Below are positions 41,990-56,633 of a stretch of DNA of 64,000 nucleotides, piece by piece. How positions within the stretch are numbered: position 1 is the first letter of the stretch; each line of letters begins with the position of its first letter. The DNA comes from a virus. The translations under genes were made by a program, and so were the position numbers. The stretch spans positions 1 through 64,000 of IMG/VR virus record IMGVR_UViG_3300008266_000277; one strand, 5' to 3'. The notes under the pieces are model-generated. The model was not told where the DNA came from and did no database searches. It saw only the letters and a list, made by a program, of their open reading frames with translations.

Positions 41990-44608
41990 TTAACCTTGTG
42001 AAACTTGTGGTAAGTTGTTCAAATAATTACTATTATCCTGAATACCTGCATCAGCTTTAGCATAGGCCAATGCTTCAGCGTAAGTCATTCCAGGATTAAG
42101 AGATTGAATCTCTATTGCATTATCTGTAACGCTTTTTGTTGATCCTTGTGTAGGAGTAATATCTCCTGACGATGTAAATCCTGCATAATCCATAGAGAAT
42201 GGATCTAATCTATAGTTAGGATACATCATATTAAGTGCTTGGATATCCATTTCAGCTTGTTCACCTGCAGCAAATGCTTTAGATACTTCTGCTCTAGCAG
42301 CTGACTTACGTGCTTGCATATTATCCTTAAGCTGAGCCCAACGATCATGAAGTGTAGTAGCAACATTAGCAAAGTTTTGGAACATAGTCTGAATACGATT
42401 AGCTCTATCTCTTTCTACACCATTTAGAATCTCTTGATTAGCATTATGTATCTGAGCTGTATACTGAGCCATTTGATCAGCACCTGCTAACTGCGTCATT
42501 GCAGCCATAGCCTGTGGACCCATTCCCATAGACATCATTTGTTCACCTGCTGCCATAGCCATACCTCTATAGTTACGTTGCATGTCTTCAGGAGAAAGTA
42601 AGTATGCTCTAGGAAGATAAGTTGCTGGAGCAGCTACAAAAGGTTCTTGTGGTTGATCACCATACAGTTCTTTAGTAGTACGATATAACTCATATATATT
42701 AGGAGCAGTCCATCCTTTAGGAATGTCACCTGATACATAGTCAGGTCTTTTTTGTGGAGTCATTGTTTCTTCACCAGGAGCTAAATCTCCTTCAGCTAAC
42801 TCCATTGGATCATCTACGAAGGCAATCTGACCAGTAGTAGTATTTGTATACTTACCATCAATCTTAGAGATCTTACCTGGCCCACCACCTACTCCTGTAT
42901 TATCTGCAGGATCAGATGCACCAACTTGACGAATCTGAAAATCTCCAATTGCGCTAGTAAGATCTTTATCAAGCTTACCTGCATTTCTATCCTCAATCAG
43001 ACTAGCATAACCATAGTATAATGCTTGCTGAAGTTTAGCCTCTTCATCTGTAGGAGCTTTAACTCCAATCTTTTCCCAGGTTTCTAAGAAATCTTTATTA
43101 GTAGATGATCCTGGATCAGCTGCATCCTGATGCTCAGGAATCTTTTTAATGTTTCCTTTATTCTGATGAGCAAGAGTAGCTAAGTTACGCTTCTGCATAT
43201 CTAGGAACATTTGATATGCAAATTCAGGATCGTTTTCAATTTTCTTTTTAAGACGTTCTGCTTCAGCACTTGTTATTCCAGAACTTCTTTTAGAAGTATC
43301 TCCTAATGCTTCAACTGCTCTTCTAGCAAGTTCTGCTTTTATTTTTGGATCATTGAACTTATCTTTGATATACTGAAACTTACGAGCAATAGCTTGATCA
43401 CCAGCAAAGATCGTGTTCAAATCCTCACCAGTATAATCAGCACCTTTAGGTTTCTTAGTTACTAATCGATAAGTACCATCATCATTTTTAATAACAAGAG
43501 GTTTACCAGCAGCTACTCTATATGCAGCTTCTTTGTCAGCTTCATATTCTTTACGTGAAAGGACAACTGCGTTACTAGGTACTTGAGGTCTTGTAAGTTT
43601 TACAGATTGATCTCCTTGAAAGTTAACTGTACCTACAACTACACCTTGAGCATTTACAATCTCATACTTTTGTGTAGATGCATTATAAACTACTCGTTCT
43701 CCTGGTTTCAGTTTAGATCCTGCAACTCCTCCAGCATCTTGATATTTACGAACTCCTCCACCATCTTGATATTTACGAACTGCACCGCCATTTTTCATTT
43801 TAACAAGACCACCTTTTTGTTGCATAGGCATTGGCGGCATACCTTGAGGCATTCCTTGCTCCATAGCTTCTGGAGGCATACCTTCCATACCCATACCCAT
43901 ATCCATTCCTGGCATAGGTTGCTGCTGTTGTACAGGAGCTTTGATAGCTTCTAAGAATGGCTCTATAGCATCTTCTATATTGATACCTGTTTTTTCAAGA
44001 TAAGGCATACCTACTGTTGGAATATCAACGTTACCTTCGTCATCTGTAAATCCTTTAGCAGACTCTTGTAACAAAGCTATCATACCTAACTTATCTGTCT
44101 TATTCTTTATGTTCATCTCAGCAGTTTCACGTGTGATCTTATCTGAATCTGGATCTAAAAGAAGTCTGATGTCATCATTAAGCATGTAAGGTTTGGAAAG
44201 CTCAGCATATGTATATCCTGATTTCTTTGCTGCTTTACCAAGCATCTCATGAATCTTAGTATTTTTTTCTTTAAGGTGATCAGAGAAAATAAAACTTCCT
44301 TCAGGTACATCAAGTGGCGTTCCTCCTTTTGAGTGCTTCTTACCACCAATGACATATGTTTTAGGAAGAGTATTAGTCCATGCATCGTCACCCATAGGAG
44401 TAAGGATGGTTTCTCCTTTCTCTGCTTCTATGTTAGCAAGATCACGCGGTACAGGCCCAAGGTTTTTCTTTACCTCAAGATTAGGTTCCATACCTTCCTT
44501 GAAGGTAACAGGAAATTGAAAAGCATTATTAGTAAGCTTTTTCTTTGTAAACAACCCTTGCTGTGCTTTTTGCAAAGGTGCTTTCTTTATAACTACTCTA
44601 CGTTTCAT
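41990..44608 (-). CDS. Virion protein with Met/Pro/Gln-rich linker and Gly-Gly motifs
   Basis: An 872-residue protein. Residues 1-220 are a folded part (ETILTPMGDDAW, VIGGKKHSKGGTPLDVP, FSDHL). A low-complexity Met/Pro/Gln stretch follows (PGMDMGMGMEGMPPEAM), then a run of Gly-Gly repeats: QKGGLVKMKNGGAV, RKYQDGGGV, RKYQDAGGV. The C-terminal part is helical, Ala/Met-rich (MAMAAGEQMMSMGMGPQAM). The KYGG/QDGG motif recurs in the next two virion genes upstream. It starts 2 bases after the 803-residue gene. Function unknown; a flexible inner-virion or assembly protein is plausible. Confidence 0.65.
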   Translation of the reverse strand: MKRRVVIKKAPLQKAQQGLFTKKKLTNNAFQFPVTFKEGMEPNLEVKKNLGPVPRDLANIEAEKGETILTPMGDDAWTNTLPKTYVIGGKKHSKGGTPLDVPEGSFIFSDHLKEKNTKIHEMLGKAAKKSGYTYAELSKPYMLNDDIRLLLDPDSDKITRETAEMNIKNKTDKLGMIALLQESAKGFTDDEGNVDIPTVGMPYLEKTGINIEDAIEPFLEAIKAPVQQQQPMPGMDMGMGMEGMPPEAMEQGMPQGMPPMPMQQKGGLVKMKNGGAVRKYQDGGGVRKYQDAGGVAGSKLKPGERVVYNASTQKYEIVNAQGVVVGTVNFQGDQSVKLTRPQVPSNAVVLSRKEYEADKEAAYRVAAGKPLVIKNDDGTYRLVTKKPKGADYTGEDLNTIFAGDQAIARKFQYIKDKFNDPKIKAELARRAVEALGDTSKRSSGITSAEAERLKKKIENDPEFAYQMFLDMQKRNLATLAHQNKGNIKKIPEHQDAADPGSSTNKDFLETWEKIGVKAPTDEEAKLQQALYYGYASLIEDRNAGKLDKDLTSAIGDFQIRQVGASDPADNTGVGGGPGKISKIDGKYTNTTTGQIAFVDDPMELAEGDLAPGEETMTPQKRPDYVSGDIPKGWTAPNIYELYRTTKELYGDQPQEPFVAAPATYLPRAYLLSPEDMQRNYRGMAMAAGEQMMSMGMGPQAMAAMTQLAGADQMAQYTAQIHNANQEILNGVERDRANRIQTMFQNFANVATTLHDRWAQLKDNMQARKSAARAEVSKAFAAGEQAEMDIQALNMMYPNYRLDPFSMDYAGFTSSGDITPTQGSTKSVTDNAIEIQSLNPGMTYAEALAYAKADAGIQDNSNYLNNLPQVSQG

Positions 44609-44610
44609 AA

Positions 44611-47022
44611 TTAAAAGTATTGTATTTCCCCTCCGCGATTAATGATGTCATCAATCTCATCATCAGTAAGTTCATATGATCCACCGACTTGATAACTCCC
44701 TCCATATTTTTTTTGAACAGCAGATCCAAATGTTGGAGGAGTAATACCAAATTTTTGAAGTGCAGATGCAAATATATCAGCACTATGATGAGGATATTGA
44801 CTATGACCTTCATTAATAAGTCGAACTACATCTTGCACTGTTGCTTGGTCATTATAATCTACATTAAGACAATCTAGACATAGATTAAAGCTGCCATCAG
44901 GATTTTGCATTTCTGGATCTTCTTTCCACATATCTGGATTATCTAAGAAATATTGCTTTTCTTTTAATGCATTATTGTAGAATTCACTAGGAGTTACGCT
45001 ACCACCTGGTTGATACATGCCTCCATATTTACCCATAGGTTGATATGGCATTTGACCAGATAACTCATAGCCAGGTATGTTTTGATAAAGAGCATCACCA
45101 TAATTTGCAGTAAGTCCAAATCTATTTTCTTTACCTGTTAAAGTAGCAAGACCTTTTGTACCCATAGACATATTACCCATTGGTATAGATCCAACATATG
45201 CATCAGGAGTATATATTCTGTTTTCCATTTGATTGAGATCTCTCTGTTCTAGTAATGATGATACCATATCCATAGTAGGAGAGATGGCTTGCCCAACTGT
45301 TCCCCAATCAGGAGTATACTTTTCTTTAATAACCATTTTACCAGCACGTGCTTTAGGCATACCACCGTATTCAAAACCAGGTATAACAGGTATATTAGGA
45401 ACTACAATAGGACCTTCTTCATTTCCTGAACTAATAGGCATTCTATCTGTATAATTACCTGTTTGTCCTTTAGTCATCATATTCATGATGTTTTGACCTG
45501 TATTACTAGAGTAAGGCCCATAACTTTTACCAGATGAAGTATTAGAACTGCTAACGTCTGCAGAATTGTCATCTCCTGCTCTACGCTGATCTCTATTATA
45601 CTTCATAACATCAAACTTAGACCTAATTCTACCCATTAGATTACCACGGTCAGATGTTCCTATTGTTGCTGTTTCTTCTTCACCTTCTACTACTTCTTTT
45701 TGAACTGGTCTACCATTTTCATCATAATCCCATTTAAGAACTACTTTAGCACCAAAGGGTCCTGCCTTACCTTTTGCTGTTTTTAAGAAAACATTATCTG
45801 GTTGAAATTCACTAAGTGCAGTGCCAAACTTTTTAATTAATTCAGGGTTAGATGCAAGATTCATTAAGTTACCCTGAAACATCATATTTCTTGAACCAGG
45901 TTGAAACATTGAAGCTACATCATACTGATTAGCTTGACCTTGCTGTTGTGCTTTTTGTATATCATAAATAGATGTTACAGGAACACCATTTTGAAAATAG
46001 AATCCTCCATGCCATCCGTTAATCCCTCCTGAACCTGATGGTTGACTATTTGATTGTTGATTATTAGGATTCTCACTTGGAAAAGATAATTGAGTAAGAT
46101 CTATATTTGGATTTTGTTCTTTTAGAGATATGTAGTATTCTGAATCTTGAGAAGATACTTTTTTCTCATTACCCCATTGATCTCGAATAACTGTATCACG
46201 TACACTCCCTGCATTTTCATACGATTGCATTCCTCCATATCTTTGAGATGGAACATCAGTAGATACTTGCGCAGGGTTGTTTCTAAAGATATCACCTCTA
46301 CGTTTTACTTTAATCTTACCTGAAGGAGAGAAAGACATGTTACCAACAGCAGAACTAAATCTATCCCATGCATCTCCTACTCTGTCTTCAATATTTGTCA
46401 TTGCATTATAGAATGGATTATCTTCTACATTTGCATATCCCATTCCTTGGTTATTAAATGCATTAGTATATCCACCGTAGTCATAGGTTGGAGTTTCAGC
46501 CATCATGTTTGATGCATAACCCATCATATCATTTGCTTCAGATAACTTTTGCTCTGTTACCTGATTAACAAGATCACGAGCCATATTAGCACCAATAGCA
46601 TCTTTAACAATTTGATTACGTTGATCTACTAAACTAGAAGATGTCACGTTGGTATTAGCTCCACCAATTTTTTTATAAAGTAATTTCTTTTTAGATTTTA
46701 TGTCACCGCCATTCTTTGCTATTGGATTAGCTGCCATTGTATTATTTAATTCTTGCTGCATCTGTGCAATAGCTTGAGCTTGTTGATCAGGTTCCATTTG
46801 CATGATCTGAGTATATAACTGCTGTAGCTGTTCTTCGTTCATACCTACAGCCTGAGCATACATTTGCAGAACTTCAGTAAGATCTTGAGATATATCTTGA
46901 GCTTGTTGCATAGGAGCCATTGGGCCTTGTCCAACTGGACCACCTACCTCAAATATATAGTTTGCAAAGTGATCTGTATTTACTTGAGGAGCTATAACTC
47001 TTACTCTTTTTTTCTGTGACAT
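44611..47022 (-). CDS. Gln/Met/Gly-rich virion protein with repeated Gly-Gly motifs
   Basis: An 803-residue protein rich in Gln, Asn, Gly and Met, with long disordered-looking stretches (QMQQELNNTMA; NPNNQQSNSQPSGSGG). Tyr/Lys-Gly-Gly motifs recur: AKNGGDI, YDYGGYT, QRYGGMQSYENAG, FEYGGMPKARAGK, KYGGMYQPGG, KKYGGSYQVGG. It ends GGSYELTDDEIDDIIN, an element closely related to three copies in the 1,444-residue hydrolase. A candidate promoter lies in the 60-base gap upstream. Function unknown; the shared motif suggests a common binding partner or processing with its neighbours. Confidence 0.65.
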   Translation of the reverse strand: MSQKKRVRVIAPQVNTDHFANYIFEVGGPVGQGPMAPMQQAQDISQDLTEVLQMYAQAVGMNEEQLQQLYTQIMQMEPDQQAQAIAQMQQELNNTMAANPIAKNGGDIKSKKKLLYKKIGGANTNVTSSSLVDQRNQIVKDAIGANMARDLVNQVTEQKLSEANDMMGYASNMMAETPTYDYGGYTNAFNNQGMGYANVEDNPFYNAMTNIEDRVGDAWDRFSSAVGNMSFSPSGKIKVKRRGDIFRNNPAQVSTDVPSQRYGGMQSYENAGSVRDTVIRDQWGNEKKVSSQDSEYYISLKEQNPNIDLTQLSFPSENPNNQQSNSQPSGSGGINGWHGGFYFQNGVPVTSIYDIQKAQQQGQANQYDVASMFQPGSRNMMFQGNLMNLASNPELIKKFGTALSEFQPDNVFLKTAKGKAGPFGAKVVLKWDYDENGRPVQKEVVEGEEETATIGTSDRGNLMGRIRSKFDVMKYNRDQRRAGDDNSADVSSSNTSSGKSYGPYSSNTGQNIMNMMTKGQTGNYTDRMPISSGNEEGPIVVPNIPVIPGFEYGGMPKARAGKMVIKEKYTPDWGTVGQAISPTMDMVSSLLEQRDLNQMENRIYTPDAYVGSIPMGNMSMGTKGLATLTGKENRFGLTANYGDALYQNIPGYELSGQMPYQPMGKYGGMYQPGGSVTPSEFYNNALKEKQYFLDNPDMWKEDPEMQNPDGSFNLCLDCLNVDYNDQATVQDVVRLINEGHSQYPHHSADIFASALQKFGITPPTFGSAVQKKYGGSYQVGGSYELTDDEIDDIINRGGEIQYF

Positions 47023-47049
47023 AACTTACAGTATATAGTATAATATAGT

Positions 47050-47076
47050 AAAAATAATATTTATTCCCTAAATATA
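47050..47076 (-). promoter_or_regulatory. Candidate virion-gene promoter (bipartite AT-rich motif, copy 2)
   Basis: TATATTTA (47076-47069, - strand), 9 bases, then TATTATTTTT (47059-47050), 28 bases before the 803-residue gene. It is followed by another TATATTA-like stretch. Same order and spacing as the copies at 41,954 and 58,893. Confidence 0.4.
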
Positions 47077-47082
47077 GGATAT

Positions 47083-50000
47083 TTATTCGTTGCCAGGTTC
47101 CTCTATGACTACGTATCCAGCATCGCGATACTTTTGTATTTCATCATCAGACATATATCTAACAGATCCACCTTTTTGTTTATTTGTATTAATGATGTTG
47201 TAATAATTCATATAACGTTTTACATTTTCATTTTCACCTCTTGCTGCTTTTTCGTAATCATTAGTTGTTAAAGCAGATGGTATATTCCATTGATAATAAG
47301 CAAGTTCTGCATCTGTAAGATCTTTACTTACATTTGGGTTTATACTAGCATTTTCTTTTGCAGTTTTCAAATTACTATTTGTTAAACCTATAGTAACAAT
47401 AGCTTGATGTTTAGAATTCCATGGATCATATGTATCTTCAGTAATGCCAAATTTTTCAAGTCTATTTACCAATCCAGGATCTCTCCATTCATCTTTATCT
47501 GTTTTAGCCCATACTGCAGCAGGATTAATTTGAGTAATACCTTGTGATTCACCTAATCCCATTTTATCTGTAAGATATGTTGGTATACCATATCTAAATG
47601 TTCCCAAATCCTGACCTCCTTTTGTTTCAGCTAAAGCAGTGGCTGTAGCTATTTTGGAAAGTTCATTATATTCAGAATCTGTCAAATTAAATGCATCCAT
47701 TACAGCTTGCTTATTGCTTTCTAGTTGATCTATAAATGGTTGCATTTCATTTATATCTGAAAGTAATCCAATACCTGGGATTTCGATATTAAGAGGCGTT
47801 ACGTTTTGCCTTAACTTATTACCTTTCTTAAGATATTCATATGTCTGTTGAACATTCTGATTGGGAGCATATATATTGTTAATTGCATAATCTGAACTCA
47901 TTAAAAGATTATCAGGATCTGTGATCTTACGAACACCACCATAGTCATATATAATAGGTGTTCCATAATCATCATACCCTACTACTATTCCTGAGTGATG
48001 ACTAGGTACATAACCTTTTTCTTCATTATAAGACTGTCCTGGCATTTCTCTATCTTCATCATATCCTTCAAAACCACCTTGTATAATAGTTCCAATAGGA
48101 AGATTCATATCTCTAAAGTATTTATCCTTTTCTGCATCAGTCATTCCTTGTAATTTATCATACAATTCATACTGATTATCTAAAGGTGCTGCATAGTATT
48201 GTTTAGCCTTATCTCCAAAAGCTCCTCGTAATTCCCAGCTATCAATAGATTCACCCCAGTTACGATAATTAGGATTTCCTTTTTTACCACTAGTAAGTCC
48301 TGCTTCTTCTTTTAATTCCCAAGAACTTTTTAATCCAAGGTTAGGTGCAACGTATTTATCATAATATAAGAAAGCACTACCTAAACAATTACCATCTGTA
48401 TCCCTTAAACATTGTACTGCTCTATCACTTACTTGTTGTTTCTTTAGCTCTTCTTTGCTATAGTAGAAATCATTAATAGTAGTTGTAGGTTTTTCATATG
48501 CTTTAGTACTTCCACTTTCTAATCCTGCTAAAAGCGTTTTATAACGTTTACCAGTTGGATCTTTCATTTCCACATATTTCCAATCTGTATCTTTATTTTT
48601 AATTTGCATTTTACCATTAACCATCTTATAGTATGAACCTGGTCTACCCGCAAATGTATAAGGTTGATCTTCTATAAATGGTTTAAACTCATTTGCTTTA
48701 AAAAGATCTAATGGAGAGTTTGATGTTTGAAGTATATTGGTACCACCATTTTGAAACTTATTCTTATCATAAAACATATGAAGTTCTAATGCATTATTAC
48801 CTGGATCAGTATTACCTCCATCTTGTTTGGTTTTTAAGTACTTATAGATATCTTTTGCTGCTCTCCTCATTTCAGGAGAGTTAGTACTCCTTTCTATTTT
48901 ATATCCTTCATCAGTGGTTCTTCTTCCCATACCTAATCTGGAAAGTTCAGAGCGTAATAAACCATCTATATAGTTTTTTTCAAATTGATCAAAAGCATTT
49001 GTACCAGAAGATTCAAGAGCGTTTATAAAATCTGGATTTTGTTTTTCTTCTTCCCATGCCCACATTATATCTCCTCCTCTTTGATCAATAGCTGCTGTTC
49101 TGAACTTATCAATATAAGGTTCTATACCTTTATCATTTCTCAATAAATGAAGCATATCTAAAAATATATCTCCTTTATTAATACTAGAGTTTGGGTTATA
49201 AGGTATTACATAGTCACCTGGAAAAGGAGATTTATATGTATAGTCAGAAGTATAATCTATTTGATCTACATCTGGAAACATAACTTCAATATCCCCATAA
49301 CCATGTTCACGTGCTTTAAAATTAGGATCTGCTATAATATGAAGGTTTTCTCCTTCTGTGCCTAAAGCCTTTTTAAACCCTGGATATCTATTTAATAGTT
49401 TTTGCTTAAGTCTATCTTTTTCTGTAAAACCTCCATCTTGAAAATGAGTAATCTGTTTATTTACATAACCACCAGTACGTTGAGTAGGAACTTCTTCTGC
49501 AGCATCTTCTGCTCGCCATTGCTGAATTCTTTTATCATATGGAACATTAGAATAAATAGGATAAGTTTCTTTTCCTTTAGAATACATCTTAAGATTCTTA
49601 TTTACTTCTTCATAGTCTGGACCTATATAATAATATTTATACCTATTCTCGCCAAAATCGCTTTTGATTTTTGCTATAGAATACCCTTCAGGTGTTATTT
49701 CTTTTATGTATTGTTCAGGAGTAAATGTTCCTTCATTTGTCTGAATAATACCTGTTTTTTCATTGTAATTGAACTTTACGGGTCCTTCTTGAAGTTTTAA
49801 TTTATCAAGATCTATGGGATTTCCAAAACGATCAGTATAAGGTTGCATCCGATCAAAGTAACTCATTGGACTAGAAGTTGTTTGACCATTTTGTGCTGAA
49901 GGCATATCTTCTATAACATATCCTGCATCGCGATACATTTTAATTTGATCATCTGTCAAATCCATTATTGTACCTCCAGTAGCCATACCTTTAAGGAATT

Positions 50001-51417
50001 GTTTAGCAATTTCAGCTTTACGTTTCTTTGCATTCTGATACTCCGCATATTCTTCTGGAGTTATGAATAAAGAAGATTTTCGTTTTTGAGGATTTTTACG
50101 AGCCCAGTTTACTGCATCCTGATATTCTTTAACTGATGGATCAGTTGTATTTACCTCATCAATTATCCATTTATTCTGTTCAGGATCATAACGTTTAATT
50201 ATTGTTTGTTCATTAGTCGCTATTTCAGGCAATGGTGTATTAACATCAATCGTCTGTGCTTTTCTAGTAGGCATTGTAATTGGTGGGAAATCATAGTATT
50301 CCTGAGAGCTTACAACGTTTCCATTTTCATCAACCTGATTTGTTTCAATATTTACTTTAGATGGGTTATTTACCTTAACCACATTAGATTTAGGTTTATT
50401 AATTATACCTAATTTTTCTAGTTTAGATTCAGGAATTCCTTTTGTACCATATTTTTTTACTCTTTTCTTTACCTCTTCGTCTGTAAGCATATCTCCTGGT
50501 TTAATTGCAACAGGATCATATCTAAATGAATAAGAATAAGGCCTCGGACCTGTGTTTTCCATAGGTGCCATATCTCCCTCATATTGAGCAGCAATATATG
50601 GATGTTTCCAAGTAAAAGGTAAACCATAATCTTCTAATCCTCCAGCAATCCAATCACTAGTTCCAATTAAATTTCCTTTCGTTTTTACATATGCAGAAAA
50701 GGGTTTACTCTTTTGCTTTTCTGCTTTATCTTGATTATATACAGCTTTTAGATGACTAAGAAGATCCTTACCTATCCAATGTGGAGAATGTTTTTTAAGA
50801 TGCGTGGTATCCCACATATATTTATTTTCTTTCATCCATTTATCAAGATATAAGCTTTGTTTATATAATTCTAAACTGTCTGCACGTGTAGGCACAGCAA
50901 ATCCTTTTTGAGCTCTAGGTATACCACCATCTTGTGAAGATCCACCTAACTGCATAGAACGTGGATCTTTTACAGAAAAAGCATTAGCTGGATTATGTCT
51001 TTCAGGATAAGGAGTAAGATCGACAACATATCCTGCATCTCTATACATCTTTATTTCATCGTCAGTAAGATCCATAATAGTACCTCCTGCTTCCATTGTA
51101 GGACCCTCTATGACAGATGAATCATAAGGAAATATATACTCTCCACCAGGCATCATATATTGCATCATACCTGTATCAGTACCTATGCCTATCAATGGTT
51201 GATCAAGAGGAGTGCCATCTGGATAACTCATAGTAATACTACGACTATCTTCATTTAGAGGCACCTCTATGATTCTACCAACATTAGCAGGATCCCAATA
51301 ACCATTAGGATCTACTTTAGGTGCGCCAGGTATTACAAACTTATCTTTAGGCCGCGCTATTTTCTTGGGCTCTTTAGCTGCCTTATGATCTCTGGACAGT
51401 TGGGACTTATTATACAT
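47083..51417 (-). CDS. Virion peptidoglycan hydrolase with cysteine-peptidase-like and transglycosylase-like domains
   Basis: A 1,444-residue multi-domain protein. A NlpC/P60- or amidase-like domain has Cys1011 in GNCLGSAFLYYDKY, His1141 in SHHSGIVVGYD, and IYDYGG after it. A lytic transglycosylase-like domain has Glu1264 in TALAETKGG and GITQINPAAVW about 30 residues on. An earlier region (VMFPDVDQIDY, GDIFLDMLHLLRND) may be another domain. Three copies of a 20-25 residue element, GG(T/S)(I/V)-x-x-(L/M)(T/S)DD(E/Q)I-x-x-YRDAGYV, lie near residues 113, 485 and 1425. It overlaps the stop of the upstream gene by 1 base. It probably opens the cell wall during DNA ejection. Confidence 0.75.
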   Translation of the reverse strand: MYNKSQLSRDHKAAKEPKKIARPKDKFVIPGAPKVDPNGYWDPANVGRIIEVPLNEDSRSITMSYPDGTPLDQPLIGIGTDTGMMQYMMPGGEYIFPYDSSVIEGPTMEAGGTIMDLTDDEIKMYRDAGYVVDLTPYPERHNPANAFSVKDPRSMQLGGSSQDGGIPRAQKGFAVPTRADSLELYKQSLYLDKWMKENKYMWDTTHLKKHSPHWIGKDLLSHLKAVYNQDKAEKQKSKPFSAYVKTKGNLIGTSDWIAGGLEDYGLPFTWKHPYIAAQYEGDMAPMENTGPRPYSYSFRYDPVAIKPGDMLTDEEVKKRVKKYGTKGIPESKLEKLGIINKPKSNVVKVNNPSKVNIETNQVDENGNVVSSQEYYDFPPITMPTRKAQTIDVNTPLPEIATNEQTIIKRYDPEQNKWIIDEVNTTDPSVKEYQDAVNWARKNPQKRKSSLFITPEEYAEYQNAKKRKAEIAKQFLKGMATGGTIMDLTDDQIKMYRDAGYVIEDMPSAQNGQTTSSPMSYFDRMQPYTDRFGNPIDLDKLKLQEGPVKFNYNEKTGIIQTNEGTFTPEQYIKEITPEGYSIAKIKSDFGENRYKYYYIGPDYEEVNKNLKMYSKGKETYPIYSNVPYDKRIQQWRAEDAAEEVPTQRTGGYVNKQITHFQDGGFTEKDRLKQKLLNRYPGFKKALGTEGENLHIIADPNFKAREHGYGDIEVMFPDVDQIDYTSDYTYKSPFPGDYVIPYNPNSSINKGDIFLDMLHLLRNDKGIEPYIDKFRTAAIDQRGGDIMWAWEEEKQNPDFINALESSGTNAFDQFEKNYIDGLLRSELSRLGMGRRTTDEGYKIERSTNSPEMRRAAKDIYKYLKTKQDGGNTDPGNNALELHMFYDKNKFQNGGTNILQTSNSPLDLFKANEFKPFIEDQPYTFAGRPGSYYKMVNGKMQIKNKDTDWKYVEMKDPTGKRYKTLLAGLESGSTKAYEKPTTTINDFYYSKEELKKQQVSDRAVQCLRDTDGNCLGSAFLYYDKYVAPNLGLKSSWELKEEAGLTSGKKGNPNYRNWGESIDSWELRGAFGDKAKQYYAAPLDNQYELYDKLQGMTDAEKDKYFRDMNLPIGTIIQGGFEGYDEDREMPGQSYNEEKGYVPSHHSGIVVGYDDYGTPIIYDYGGVRKITDPDNLLMSSDYAINNIYAPNQNVQQTYEYLKKGNKLRQNVTPLNIEIPGIGLLSDINEMQPFIDQLESNKQAVMDAFNLTDSEYNELSKIATATALAETKGGQDLGTFRYGIPTYLTDKMGLGESQGITQINPAAVWAKTDKDEWRDPGLVNRLEKFGITEDTYDPWNSKHQAIVTIGLTNSNLKTAKENASINPNVSKDLTDAELAYYQWNIPSALTTNDYEKAARGENENVKRYMNYYNIINTNKQKGGSVRYMSDDEIQKYRDAGYVVIEEPGNE

Positions 51418-54400
51418 TATCTTGGTGAATTAAGATTCTTAATATTAGCAATATTAAATAACATTTTAACACCTCCAGATATTCTTCGTCGAAGAAGTAT
51501 AAGATTTCTGTAGTGTCTGAACTTCTTATGTTCCGTAGGATACTTATTATAATCCAAGTTATTTGGATTAAGTGTCCTTACATAACCATTATCAGCTGTG
51601 TTAAATATTACTTCGCTAGCATGTGGACCAGCAAGAACAGTAGTACCAGGAATTAATGGTCCTGTTGGTGGATAATCTGACCCTATTGGGAACTCACCTC
51701 TATCTTTTGTAATATCCCAGAACTGATTAAATCTATACTTATTCTCTTCCTTAGAGTAAAGTATATCAATTGATGTCAGATTCACAATAGGATACTGTAC
51801 CAAAAGAGTTGGATTATTTTTAGGTAAGATGTTTAATCGTAGCAATCCTGAACACTGTTCAGAGTTGTAAATAATTGCTTCATCAAAGTTAAAATCAAGC
51901 TCATGATATCTGTCGTAACAATTATCTGTATATCTATAACATTCTAACTGATACTCTATACTTCGTAGAGTTGTCATCTGTTGTACTGTATTAGATAGAA
52001 ATTCTATTTCAAAAGGATAATCAACCCCATAGAAGTTACAGTATGAATCACATGCATAATTATGTAACCAGATGGAATTATTAAGTACAGATAAGAAAGT
52101 GTTCTTAGCAGGCAATAGATATGTAGGATGCCAATCGTGATATGATATAAAGTTACCTATTTTAGGATCATAACTCATAGTCCATGATGCATCATTAAAA
52201 TATAATGGATCTCCAAGTTCTACTATCTGACCTGTTTCATTAACTTTAAACTTATTACTTTTAAGATATGTAAGAGTATATGGTATATCTTTACGAAGAG
52301 TATAATCTTTTTTACAGAAGTATACAAGCATGTTTTCATTATCGTAGACAGCCTGACATCCAATACCTATTACAGGATTATCTATAAGCTCAAACTCAGG
52401 AAAAGTTTCTGTAAGTTTGTACGGTAAGAACTGCGCAAACCACCACTTAAGATTACCTGGTAATGATATCTCTTGAATACCTTTCCCCCCTACAGCAAAT
52501 ATCTTACCCTGATTCTGTGATATATAGAATATACCTACAGGCGTAGATACAATAGATAATCTATTCTGACACGATCCATAACCATAAGGCCTATCAGAGT
52601 TATCTAAGTACTGTAGTGGTTGATTAAATAATCCACCATCACCAATAGTAATACGTGTTCCTTGTTCCAAAGTCAGATTTTCTGATCCTAGGAATTGCAT
52701 AGGTGATTCATCCTGAAATAAGATAAGAGCACCATTAAGATTAATGTTTTTAATAGCAGTAACCTTACTTCTAAAATCTCTGTAGTTAACAGGTAAAAAT
52801 ACTCTCCAGTAATCCTTCCTGCTTTCTAGTGCTTGAGGTAATGAATACAGAACCCTATTAGGTCTATATACATAACATGATTCTGCTATGTTTGGATTAT
52901 AATCTTGGCGATGTGTATTACCCCAAGGTATTATATTATTGAAAAGCCTAGTAACGCTAAGACTGAAATCATACTTAAAGTAATTACCTGATTTGATAAT
53001 TTCAGTACTAAATAATCTCTTAAGATCTGTATCCTCATATGGGTCGTAGAATCTTTCAAAATCTTGTTCTCCCCAATCGCGAAAGCTAACATTAATAGAA
53101 GACTCTACATAAAAGTCGCGTACACCTGAATTAAAAAGATACATGAAAGCATTTCTAATGACAAATAAACCATTAAAACTAATGGCAGCAGGCGCTCTAT
53201 CTAAACATGCCATATCAGATGGAGTTGCAATATTTTGCAAGAAGCTAACGATTCCACCAGATGAAAATACGCTACTTAAGCTTTGTATAAAATCTGACCA
53301 ATCAAAATCTTCTGTATTCATCCAATATGTAGAAAATGGTATCATCTTATTTAGACGATAGTCATAGGGAGTTCCATCAGGTTGATTAAATAACCAGTTG
53401 TAGAAAAAGAACATTGTATTCTTTTCAGTGTATCTTCCTACATAAGTATCTCCATTAAAAAGTATACCAGTTACTTTAGACGCTTTATCTACTGAACATG
53501 TAGATACAGGTATTTGAATTATTGATTCAATTTTGCCATACTGATTTCTAAAACGTTGTTTAAGACCAACGTAATGACAAGATGAATCTGATCTAAATGG
53601 TTTTGTTGGTTTTTTAAACTTGTCAATAGTAGACAATGCATTATTATATTCATCTCTCATGTCAGCATACCCAACAGTAACACGTGAGTTATCTACTAAT
53701 GTAGGATCTTTTATAATACGTTTAGTTTGTATAGCTACAGAACGAGATCTAAATAAGTTATTGATCCTATAACTTTGAGTCCAATCTTGTATGTATGGTT
53801 CTAGATATCTTGACTCAGACATTACTGCACGCTTAGTTGCTACAGTTGGACTGTTTCCTGTACAAGAAGGCGCAACAAATCCTGTGTACCAACAATGTGA
53901 GTTATACTGAAGTGCATACTGTTGATACTTACTTGCAGCTTTAATTAGTCTAATTGTAGAATCAATACCATCAACCATGTAGTTATAGAACATGATTGGT
54001 TTATTTAAATTTTGTATAAGAGTTGGTAAAGCGCTACTAGGTGTTTCTTCGACAGATTCTACAGTCATCGGACCTAGAGATCCTGGTACTATATATACAC
54101 CGCTTTCTAAAGCATCAATAGATGCTTGAGTAGCAATAATACTTGCCTGTATAGCAACATCAGTTGGAGGAGGTGCAACAAGTAATGCAGTTTGTAAAGT
54201 CTCTAAAGTTGCATTTAGAGCAGGAAGTCCTGCTGCAACTGCAGCTTCATAAGCAGCATATGCAGAACCTGAACCCAATGGTTGTTGACCTGATGATGTA
54301 GGTCCAATCCAGTTACCTCCTAAGTTAATTGCACGAGTTGAATGCTGTTGTTTAGTTTTTTTACCATTCATAGATAGAACGGCAATACCTATACCAATAA

Positions 54401-56633
54401 GTATAGAAGAAAGAAAAGCAGCGTCTGTAACTAGTTTATGCTGAGGATGTTTATCTGGATAATCAAATGCACCTTCTACTTTACCTCTAAGCTCACCATA
54501 TATTTTTATTTCAGTAGCAGATAGATATGGATCATAAAACTGTGTGTCAGGACCGTGGAATGTGAAGTTCTTTCTGTTAACTTGATTATTAGGATCATAC
54601 CCAACATAATTGTCATCATTATAATCTGGTCCAGAGTTACCTGTTAAAGGTTCAAATGATACTTCTTCTTTAGAAATAAATGGATCAGGTCTAAGATCAT
54701 TGTACGGATAGTTAGGATAGAGACCTTTACGATTAGTAATCAAGTTAACATTTGAATCATTATCTCCATCGATATCATATTCAAACATGTTATTGATCAT
54801 ACCTTTAGCTATAATAGTTTCATTACCTGCACGTGAGCCACGCAGGATCTCATAGCCTACAATATTACCAATTGGAACTCCATCATTATCTACAGGTGGT
54901 CTGACATTTTCAAACTTAACACCCATTACACGAATAAATCCACCACCAGGTCTATAGTGATTAGTTAAGGCATTTGCACCTGAATCTGTTGCGTTATCAG
55001 GAAATCGATGGTGACGTATAGGTTGACCACATAAATCATATTGATTGTATTGTGTATCTGAGTAAGGTAAGCCTGGAGCAGGAATGCCAGATCCTGGACA
55101 TGTAATCCATGGTGTAAGTGTTGACCAACAATGTGAAGATGAATTCCATACTTCAGGAGAGTTATCGTCATAGAGCTCAGTTGATTCCCAATACCCCATG
55201 TTTCCTTCAGCAATAACAACACCGCCATTAGGTAGAGTTGTATTAGGAGTTGCTGTAACTATAGCAGTGTTTCTAACCTGCCATACTTTTATATCTCCTA
55301 ATGGTATACCAGCATCTGTTTCAGGCTCTGCGTTATTTATATCACATGCGCTAGATATTATTTCTGTATCTGATGTATATGCAGGTCTACCTGGTATATG
55401 AAATGAAGGAGACTTATCTCCTGTATTATAAATCCATCTGATAAAGAAGGTATACACCTCATCGCGCAGATACCCTACGTTGTTACCACCATCTCTATAG
55501 TATGTTTCAGGATATTCTACGTTAACCCACTTAGTTACTATCTGATTAGCTAAAGGTTGGTAGTTAAAATCAAACTTATCTGTAGGACCTACTCGAAGTA
55601 GATAATTACCTGCTTCATAAATACCATCAGACTTATCTGCAATAGATGTGCGAAGAGGAATATTATTAAGCGATATCTGAGGCCATGTGGTCTCTAATCC
55701 ATCAATAGTAATCCTTGTCTGTCTAGTACTGTACACCCCTACCTTAGATGCTACTGTCTGTAGGTTAAAGAATTGTACTAATACAAGCTCAAACTGATCA
55801 AAGTTATCAGTATCCATTTCCTCTATGATGACATCAAGGGAAGATGCTGTATTCCTATGAATAAAGAGTGGTTGTACGTTAGAAGGCATGAAGTAATCAC
55901 TCACTCGTTGTTCTTGTACAGTATAAGCAACAACTACATAGTAAGAACCGTTAGGTACTAGACCACCACTAAAACCACGTTCTAATCTAACGCATGGTTG
56001 TTTCATTAGTGTTTCTAGTCGTAACTTATCACAATCTATCTGATCTGTATTAGTACAAACTGTACAACCCTGTGCATCAGTAACGCAGTTCTGTACCCAT
56101 GGTATGGGAGAGTCCTGATTAGTATACTCGTTATTAGAAGGATTGTCTACATCGATAGCAACATACCTATCAGGGTTAAGACCATCAGACCAATAGACAT
56201 CAAACTCACATCTGAAGTTTTGTTTAGATACGCCAGTAATAAGTTTACCTCTAGTAAAGTTAAGACATAGCCCACTAAAAAGTTTTGTGTATTCGCAGGA
56301 TTCTTCTCTGAATAACCCAACTTCATGGTTACTATCATCATCCGTACTAAACAGCACATATGTATCAGCTTTAATATGCACAGCACCAATAATAGTCAAA
56401 GGTATACCTGTAGGTGTACCATCATGAGTAATGGCAGTACAGAAGACATTAGATGCTTCATTACCTAGTGATCCTATATCCCCACTCTTAGAGTTATTGA
56501 TAGCATTCCTAGCTTGCGTCCAAGACTGATCATCTACAAGATAATTACCAACATCTTCTACTAGGGCTTTAGTAAACCCCTGTGCTTGTATACCCGTAGT
56601 ATTAGTATTAGCCCCTCTTCTACTCTTAGCCAT
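51417..56633 (-). CDS. Tail stabilisation/muzzle protein (P22 gp10-like, crAss type)
   Basis: A 1,738-residue beta-rich protein (NRAVNINKSK-type opening: ARNAINNSKSGDIGSLGNEASN; then TYVLFSTDDD, YVAIDVDN, YYVVVAYTVQE). This is the layout of the large stabilisation protein that closes the podovirus tail tube, called the muzzle in crAss001. A hydrophobic segment ILIGIGIAVLSM near residue 740 and an Ala-rich helical stretch after it (AAYEAAVAAGLPALNATLETL) interrupt the beta part. The order 195-, 223-, 322-residue proteins then this gene matches crAss-like tail-ring genes followed by the muzzle. Identification is by size, order and N-terminus. Confidence 0.8.
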   Translation of the reverse strand: MAKSRRGANTNTTGIQAQGFTKALVEDVGNYLVDDQSWTQARNAINNSKSGDIGSLGNEASNVFCTAITHDGTPTGIPLTIIGAVHIKADTYVLFSTDDDSNHEVGLFREESCEYTKLFSGLCLNFTRGKLITGVSKQNFRCEFDVYWSDGLNPDRYVAIDVDNPSNNEYTNQDSPIPWVQNCVTDAQGCTVCTNTDQIDCDKLRLETLMKQPCVRLERGFSGGLVPNGSYYVVVAYTVQEQRVSDYFMPSNVQPLFIHRNTASSLDVIIEEMDTDNFDQFELVLVQFFNLQTVASKVGVYSTRQTRITIDGLETTWPQISLNNIPLRTSIADKSDGIYEAGNYLLRVGPTDKFDFNYQPLANQIVTKWVNVEYPETYYRDGGNNVGYLRDEVYTFFIRWIYNTGDKSPSFHIPGRPAYTSDTEIISSACDINNAEPETDAGIPLGDIKVWQVRNTAIVTATPNTTLPNGGVVIAEGNMGYWESTELYDDNSPEVWNSSSHCWSTLTPWITCPGSGIPAPGLPYSDTQYNQYDLCGQPIRHHRFPDNATDSGANALTNHYRPGGGFIRVMGVKFENVRPPVDNDGVPIGNIVGYEILRGSRAGNETIIAKGMINNMFEYDIDGDNDSNVNLITNRKGLYPNYPYNDLRPDPFISKEEVSFEPLTGNSGPDYNDDNYVGYDPNNQVNRKNFTFHGPDTQFYDPYLSATEIKIYGELRGKVEGAFDYPDKHPQHKLVTDAAFLSSILIGIGIAVLSMNGKKTKQQHSTRAINLGGNWIGPTSSGQQPLGSGSAYAAYEAAVAAGLPALNATLETLQTALLVAPPPTDVAIQASIIATQASIDALESGVYIVPGSLGPMTVESVEETPSSALPTLIQNLNKPIMFYNYMVDGIDSTIRLIKAASKYQQYALQYNSHCWYTGFVAPSCTGNSPTVATKRAVMSESRYLEPYIQDWTQSYRINNLFRSRSVAIQTKRIIKDPTLVDNSRVTVGYADMRDEYNNALSTIDKFKKPTKPFRSDSSCHYVGLKQRFRNQYGKIESIIQIPVSTCSVDKASKVTGILFNGDTYVGRYTEKNTMFFFYNWLFNQPDGTPYDYRLNKMIPFSTYWMNTEDFDWSDFIQSLSSVFSSGGIVSFLQNIATPSDMACLDRAPAAISFNGLFVIRNAFMYLFNSGVRDFYVESSINVSFRDWGEQDFERFYDPYEDTDLKRLFSTEIIKSGNYFKYDFSLSVTRLFNNIIPWGNTHRQDYNPNIAESCYVYRPNRVLYSLPQALESRKDYWRVFLPVNYRDFRSKVTAIKNINLNGALILFQDESPMQFLGSENLTLEQGTRITIGDGGLFNQPLQYLDNSDRPYGYGSCQNRLSIVSTPVGIFYISQNQGKIFAVGGKGIQEISLPGNLKWWFAQFLPYKLTETFPEFELIDNPVIGIGCQAVYDNENMLVYFCKKDYTLRKDIPYTLTYLKSNKFKVNETGQIVELGDPLYFNDASWTMSYDPKIGNFISYHDWHPTYLLPAKNTFLSVLNNSIWLHNYACDSYCNFYGVDYPFEIEFLSNTVQQMTTLRSIEYQLECYRYTDNCYDRYHELDFNFDEAIIYNSEQCSGLLRLNILPKNNPTLLVQYPIVNLTSIDILYSKEENKYRFNQFWDITKDRGEFPIGSDYPPTGPLIPGTTVLAGPHASEVIFNTADNGYVRTLNPNNLDYNKYPTEHKKFRHYRNLILLRRRISGGVKMLFNIANIKNLNSPR

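Follow-up and report, generated by a model that had tools for sequence, protein, structure and literature searches.

Crassviruses are among the most abundant gut viruses. Phage T4 packages variable internal proteins that share a short capsid targeting sequence, N-terminal, present on all of them, and removed by the prohead protease. The proteases of adenovirus and ASFV act at GG sites, and xxGG motifs occur there in packaged, partly basic virion proteins. T7 and P22 have ejection proteins, ordered internal proteins that leave via the tail and include a peptidoglycan hydrolase (PMC8954989). The crAss001 structure places one portion of the cargo protein gp45 at the portal and a second in the tail barrel; it also shows a helical segment of 14 residues in the muzzle that has no assignment (PMC10172136). 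How crassvirus tails arrange large cargo proteins and release them in order is the wider problem, and most of these proteins were beyond what that structure could resolve. Among systems that assemble in order, polyketide and nonribosomal peptide synthases use a β-hairpin docking domain and a C-terminal SLiM, joined by strand pairing with salt bridges and sorted into partner classes (PMC9113145).

Here we analyze three adjacent genes 3′ of a phage muzzle-like gene whose products carry short tags at their ends. We consider it probable that matched end-tags couple consecutive cargo proteins head to tail, between tail tip and portal.

Genes 3′ of the muzzle gene and their relatives

The window, the whole stretch of DNA analyzed, comprises 64,000 nt and covers part of a 64.8-kb virus record. 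Through its muzzle-like gene we fetched 80 relatives, giving 81 genomes with the window's own. By gene content the source is classed as a crAss-like phage (order Crassvirales or close), because a near-complete relative carries the crassvirus capsid protein. The two marks of membership, capsid and muzzle, were found as Crass_capsid PF23898 in that relative (G010, E 1e-30) and as the muzzle homologue in the window; no capsid gene was found within the 64-kb window. The closest annotated muzzle matches are Cellulophaga phi4:1 and phi17:2, Leptolyngbya phage Lbo-JY46, csAssE-Sib, and Flavobacterium phages. Lbo-JY46 (L081, PP438436) infects a named cyanobacterial host and has both a crAss-like muzzle and the same kind of tagged cargo cluster, which makes it a practical test system.

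After the muzzle-like gene, the minus strand holds open reading frames of 1444, 803, and 872 aa, just where the original prediction had placed them. The cluster is laid out as follows.

51417..56633, minus strand: muzzle-like gene, 1738 aa (phrog_37948, E 3.2e-71), the cluster's upstream anchor
47083..51417, minus strand: gene 1, 1444 aa, next to the muzzle gene on its 3′ side; a variable gene for putative cargo that combines an N-terminal domain with modules and three C-tag-type units
44611..47022, minus strand: gene 2, 803 aa, a mostly disordered linker protein with both tags
41990..44608, minus strand: gene 3, 872 aa, a crassvirus cargo protein 1 relative by profile match
44054..44452, minus strand: cargo-1 core, gene 3 aa 53–185, from profile matches

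Profile comparison identifies gene 3 as a relative of crassvirus cargo protein 1. Its family profile (aa 105–185) aligns to the portal-bound domain region (480–543) of crAss001 gp45 and to its relatives at E 7.8e-7 (probability 92%); the single sequence scored E 0.096 against Pfam PF25725, below cut-off. Gene 3 lies 3′ of the muzzle gene and ahead of large, putatively RNAP-associated proteins, an assignment from position and size only. Tblastn of the 872-, 803-, and 1444-aa proteins found no match among annotated phages, PDB sequence searches with the gene 2 and gene 3 profiles returned nothing relevant, and a phrog_7853 family search came back empty, as did its controls.

Gene 1 is modular. 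Across 37 relatives its modules include SET (6), phage lysozyme (5), VanY, amidase, glucosaminidase, YkuD, and GNAT. The SET-like domains, unusual for a phage, occur in gene 1 of L026, L051, L063, L065, and L077 (E 5.7e-6 in L065). In the window, inspection by eye suggests a papain/CHAP-type peptidase in gene 1 aa 1000–1395 (about 47233–48420), with a lysozyme-like domain (GESQGITQINP) after it; the C-terminal 445 aa gave no family match in Pfam or PDB. DUF5872 and DUF5754 domains also occur in cargo-type proteins of the cluster (gene 2 of L018 and L079, and others).

In Cellulophaga phage phi17:2, the gene-1 N-domain (E 2e-5) and the cargo-1 core (E 2e-5) are fused in one protein, gp041, which is annotated as a virion structural protein; neither a C-tag nor an N-tag was detected in it. 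Synteny and this annotation suggest that genes 1 and 2 probably encode virion cargo as well. The gap between genes 1 and 2 (47023–47085 in the window; usually 57–65 bases in about 30 relatives) opens with an inverted repeat that starts at the stop codon of gene 1, TAAACTT-N-AAGTTTA; in the window it reads TAAATAT-CC-TATATTTA, and an AT-rich promoter-like stretch follows.

Gly-Gly motifs and two kinds of end-tag

The original prediction had linked the three proteins through a bipartite pattern, [KR]YGG or KxGG followed after 5–9 residues by [QN][DN]GG or xAGG. This pattern occurs once in the three proteins, and its halves do not rise above GG-keeping shuffles (P = 0.27 and 0.07). What survives is the observation that short Gly-Gly motifs are shared and commoner than chance, once the consensus is redefined as [YFMH][QK]xGG. 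We derived that consensus from the post-muzzle genes of the 81 genomes, which contain 1591 distinct GG sites; there Y/F/M/H is favored at −3 and Q/K at −2, often with P at −5. Seven such motifs occur in the three proteins, where plain shuffles give 0.41 and GG-kept shuffles 1.0 (P = 0.0005), and the window's other 17,918 aa contain none; post-muzzle genes of the relatives contain 316, compared with 21 and 51. Frequency against shuffles and presence in homologues had been proposed as the check, and the redefined motif is in excess in both. Plain GG is only mildly enriched, in proteins with 8–10% Gly, and the muzzle and upstream genes of the relatives showed no excess of the redefined motif over shuffles. 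A looser form, [YF]xxGG, occurs 20 times in gut crassvirus cargo protein 1 (8.1 in GG-kept shuffles). As predicted, the proteins are otherwise unlike one another: pairwise BLASTP gave nothing convincing (best E 0.002, uncorrected and unmasked).

A larger feature went unremarked in the original prediction: a unit of ~25 residues together with an N-terminal tag. The unit is acidic (GGxxxxLTDEEIxxYRxGGYxVEEL) and occurs in three copies in the 1444-aa protein; a second type ends the 803-aa protein. The N-terminal tag is basic, M..KxVRIxxLPxAQxG, and opens both gene 2 and gene 3, which are mutually dissimilar. We refer to the terminal acidic unit as the C-tag and to the basic one as the N-tag.

51019..51087, minus strand: internal type-1 unit, gene 1 aa 111–133, GGTIMDLTDDEIKMYRDAGYVVD (repeat HMM E 2.6e-11; type 1 vs. 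type 2, 41 vs. 15 bits)
49900..49977, minus strand: internal type-1 unit, gene 1 aa 481–506, followed by SAQNG (repeat HMM E 1.2e-12; 43 vs. 16 bits)
47098..47175, minus strand: C-terminal tag of gene 1, aa 1415–1440, KGGSVRYMSDDEIQKYRDAGYVVIEE (repeat profile, terminal position, charge)
46984..47022, minus strand: N-tag of gene 2, MSQKKRVRVIAPQ (N-tag pattern, charge; predicted strand aa 4–10, pLDDT about 75)
44614..44685, minus strand: type-2 C-tag of gene 2, aa 780–803, GGSYELTDDEIDDIINRGGEIQYF-stop (terminal position, charge; predicted strand 782–786, helix 787–795, strand 799–802)
44555..44608, minus strand: N-tag of gene 3, MKRRVVIKKAPLQKAQQG (family consensus, N-tag pattern, charge)
43721..43819, minus strand: Gly-Gly cluster of gene 3, aa 264–296, QKGGLVKMKNGGAVRKYQDGGGVRKYQDAGGVA (motif counts)

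A unit profile built from the relatives detects 114 copies in 82 proteins, and single 25-aa copies score E near 1e-14 against it. In a broader count, 68 of 120 unit copies end within 8 aa of a stop codon (1.2 expected at random). GG stands directly ahead of the unit in 126 of 151 distinct cases (background 18%), and [AYFM][QK]xG follows within 16 aa of internal units in 42 of 67 (background 6%). The internal units (n = 43) are all type 1, and the same module plus its unit can stand inside the protein in one genome and at the C-terminus in another. Scanning 2.9 million IMG/VR contigs with a degenerate DNA pattern of the unit gave 45 matching stretches; in each case that could be viewed in the fetched stretch, the unit was part of a long ORF of this cluster type, and the muzzle was visible in most. 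The consensus tag used as a search query returned a chance match only, and a literature search for papers naming the Gly-Gly motif or the end-tags found none.

The N-tag takes the form MKKRVRIYKA in gene 2. The gene 3 family consensus is MxxKVRIxKLPKAxxG, with P11 and G18 invariant among 20 homologues. In six near-complete genomes the strict N-tag pattern picks out 6 of 696 proteins, all just 3′ of the muzzle gene. Both tags are conserved among proteins that are mostly 20–30% identical overall, and their mean charges are opposite (C-tag, −3.75; N-tag, +4.0). In L013 and L059, gene 1 is untagged and has at its C-terminus KxVKIKSLP, a strand resembling the N-tag.

Part of the Gly-Gly motif lies around the tags and most of it in flexible linkers. 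Only 50 of 288 distinct [YFMH][QK]xGG sites are near a tag or the N-terminus (17% vs. 10% of positions), so most sites are left as linker sequence; a reading of the motif as a mere flank of the tags fails for these. Lys-rich, GG-rich proteins with KKYQDGG or MQxGG also occur near the major capsid gene (G010 85872–89874, L104; G011 71709–73040, L121).

Pairing, type matching, and predicted joint fold

The tags are distributed by gene order: gene 1 has a C-tag and no N-tag, gene 2 has both, and gene 3 has an N-tag only. Across 54 genomes, a unit anywhere in gene 1 (terminal or internal) and an N-tag on gene 2 were both present in 39 and both absent in 15, with none carrying either alone (Fisher P = 1e-13). 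The stricter, terminal-only C-tag pattern gave 32/0/7/15 (both/C-tag only/N-tag only/neither); in several genomes (e.g., L038, L054, L073) gene 2 has its N-tag and gene 1 has internal units in place of a terminal C-tag. The tag patterns were drawn up after the sequences had been seen, and two letters were added to the N-tag pattern to admit two obvious cases, W872 and L015. The phylogenetic test is therefore the fairer figure: six of six phylogenetically independent pairs agree on the co-occurrence of C-tag unit and N-tag (P = 0.031), and only about six independent switches underlie the pairing.

The same holds junction by junction, counted in loci where cargo 1 was reached. Junctions into cargo 1 are C+N+ in 39, C+N− in 2, and C−N− in 1, both C+N− cases (W872, L015) having N-tags that the first pattern overlooked; inner junctions are C+N+ in 24, C−N− in 14, and C−N+ in 1. 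Cargo 1 itself has a C-tag in 0 of 32. In the cultured phage Lbo-JY46, gene 1 lacks the C-tag, gene 2 lacks the N-tag and has a C-tag, and the next gene has an N-tag (MKIRIIGLPKAQIG); this downstream gene gave no significant cargo-1 profile match.

C-tags also fall into clearly different types, type 1 preceding gene 2 and type 2 preceding cargo 1: mean scores are 44 and 51 bits against the matching profile and 10 bits in each case against the opposite one. Judged by these profiles, the type tracks the downstream partner, not the gene that bears the tag. In five genomes gene 1 stands directly before cargo 1 (L003, L006, L008, L027, L072), and its C-tag is type 2 (24–40 vs. 2–19 bits). In L061 and L065, an inserted gene ahead of a gene-2-like N-tagged protein bears a type-1 tag, and gene 1 has a third kind of tag, facing a different N-tag.

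Structure prediction places order at the same ends. AlphaFold models the 803-aa protein at a mean pLDDT of 42, ordered mainly at aa ~44–98 and at both ends, with the N-tag strand at ~75 and the strand–helix–strand of the C-tag at ~75–81. We also modeled a natural C-tag/N-tag junction from relatives whose gap is only 9 bases, reading the stop codon as Ser and continuing through three more codons (13-row alignment). The junction is predicted as one β-α-β-β unit (E24–27, H29–37, E41–47, E52–58) in which the N-tag is the last strand, at pLDDT about 78–86 with flanks below 50. The short linker favors a hairpin, so the joint fold is supportive rather than proof. Foldseek against PDB with the 89-aa junction model gave nothing better than E 1.4, for tags that are short.

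Probable coupling of neighboring cargo proteins

We infer that the tags probably bind each other physically within the virion and serve ordered packaging or ejection. The acidic C-tag (strand–helix–strand, ~25 aa) of one protein would pair with the basic N-tag of the protein encoded next, whose single strand, ending P-x-A-Q-x-G, would complete one small β-sheet. Type-1 tags would couple gene 1 to gene 2 and the type-2 tag gene 2 to cargo protein 1, forming a cargo chain in gene order; with cargo protein 1 held at the portal as in crAss001, the chain would run from tail toward head. Internal type-1 units in gene 1 may be extra coupling sites at module boundaries, a role that is less clear because these units come without the N-tag strand. 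The Gly-Gly motifs would then be linker sequence around tags and modules. Coupling of neighbors would account for which gene has which tag, for tags being gained and lost together, for the type following the partner, and for the absence of any need for tags in the fused phi17:2 protein. The original prediction that repeated short motifs in neighboring genes mean a shared binding role is supported in spirit, through the longer end-tags and not the Gly-Gly motif.

A single shared partner, receptor or scaffold, had been the original reading. Each tag would act on its own as a signal for packaging or positioning by binding a common virion component (inner tail wall, portal, scaffold, or muzzle), leaving neighbors uncoupled. 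The placement of tags at protein and module ends with Gly-rich linkers resembles packaging signals, and in crAss001 unassigned helical segments of 14 residues are bound within the muzzle and residues 214–245 of gp45 lie on the tail-barrel wall (PMC10172136). We nevertheless judge this unlikely, since it predicts neither that a C-tag on gene i tracks an N-tag on gene i+1, nor that C-tag type follows the downstream partner, nor that the two tags have opposite charge; the evidence favors pairing of neighbors. The original prediction had also raised double-glycine cleavage, by which a virion maturation protease of adenovirus or ASFV type would release modules from polyproteins. The [AYFM][QK]xG excess after internal units, the module that is internal in some genomes and C-terminal in others, and the motif's presence on Lys-rich head-cluster proteins all speak for it. 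Against it, no maturation-protease family appears among the best 25 of 31 Pfam matches for the 68 proteins of one near-complete relative (a scan that distant proteases would escape), upstream genes show no motif excess, matched tags on separate genes would have no reason, and a term search of the crAss001 structure paper turned up no mention of cargo cleavage (PMC10172136). We rate cleavage as improbable.

That the tags are functionless relics of one ancestral polyprotein, split at a repeated boundary element, would fit the unit's occurrence at internal module boundaries and the adjacent, ordered genes. Relics would decay, however, and both tags are conserved at 20–30% overall identity; internal units have no basic N-tag strand, and type matching in rearranged loci would be unexpected, which makes this very improbable. 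Common receptor, cleavage, and splitting relics each explain less than coupling of neighbors. A compositional artefact of Gly-rich low-complexity sequence can draw on the Gly content and mild GG enrichment but is scarcely credible given the counts left by GG-keeping shuffles (1.0 vs. 7; 51 vs. 316 in relatives), and for the tags it is rejected on the unit profile E values near 1e-14.

Under coupling of neighbors, matched end-tags provide a specific, testable rule for which cargo proteins touch. A full docking code goes further and seems to us possible, short of probable: matched orthogonal end-tags would chain successive cargo from tail tip to portal, swappable effector modules would be bounded by the same tag, and protein ends would set ejection order, allowing modules to be gained without disturbing the chain. 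If true, the tags could serve as short, orthogonal connectors between proteins and as a means of loading foreign proteins into phage particles, and would explain how a gene with changing modules (lysozymes, amidases, SET domains) is kept attached to a conserved chain.

T4 internal proteins resemble the putative cargo described here in being variable, packaged, and marked by a short terminal signal; adenovirus and ASFV differ in having a GG-site protease, no such enzyme being among the best 25 of 31 Pfam matches in the relative scanned. A term search of a description of T7 and P22 ejection proteins turned up no docking tags, and the comparison with them is by description only (PMC8954989). As for crassvirus cargo protein 1 (crAss001 gp45, PF25725), its portal-bound domain region matches gene 3 (E 7.8e-7), and it shares the muzzle-to-RNAP gene cluster and aromatic-x-x-GG linkers. 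Unlike gp45, which comes immediately after the muzzle gene and shows neither of the tag patterns, gene 3 is N-tagged and preceded by one or more tagged genes. In principle, the proposed coupling comes closest to polyketide and nonribosomal peptide synthase docking domains, which are short C- and N-terminal tags on proteins that must assemble in order. No sequence or fold relation to them was found (best Foldseek E 1.4 against PDB, with short tags), and the phage arrangement differs: the C-tag would be the folded half and the N-tag the strand, and the proteins so marked are putative virion cargo, not enzyme subunits.
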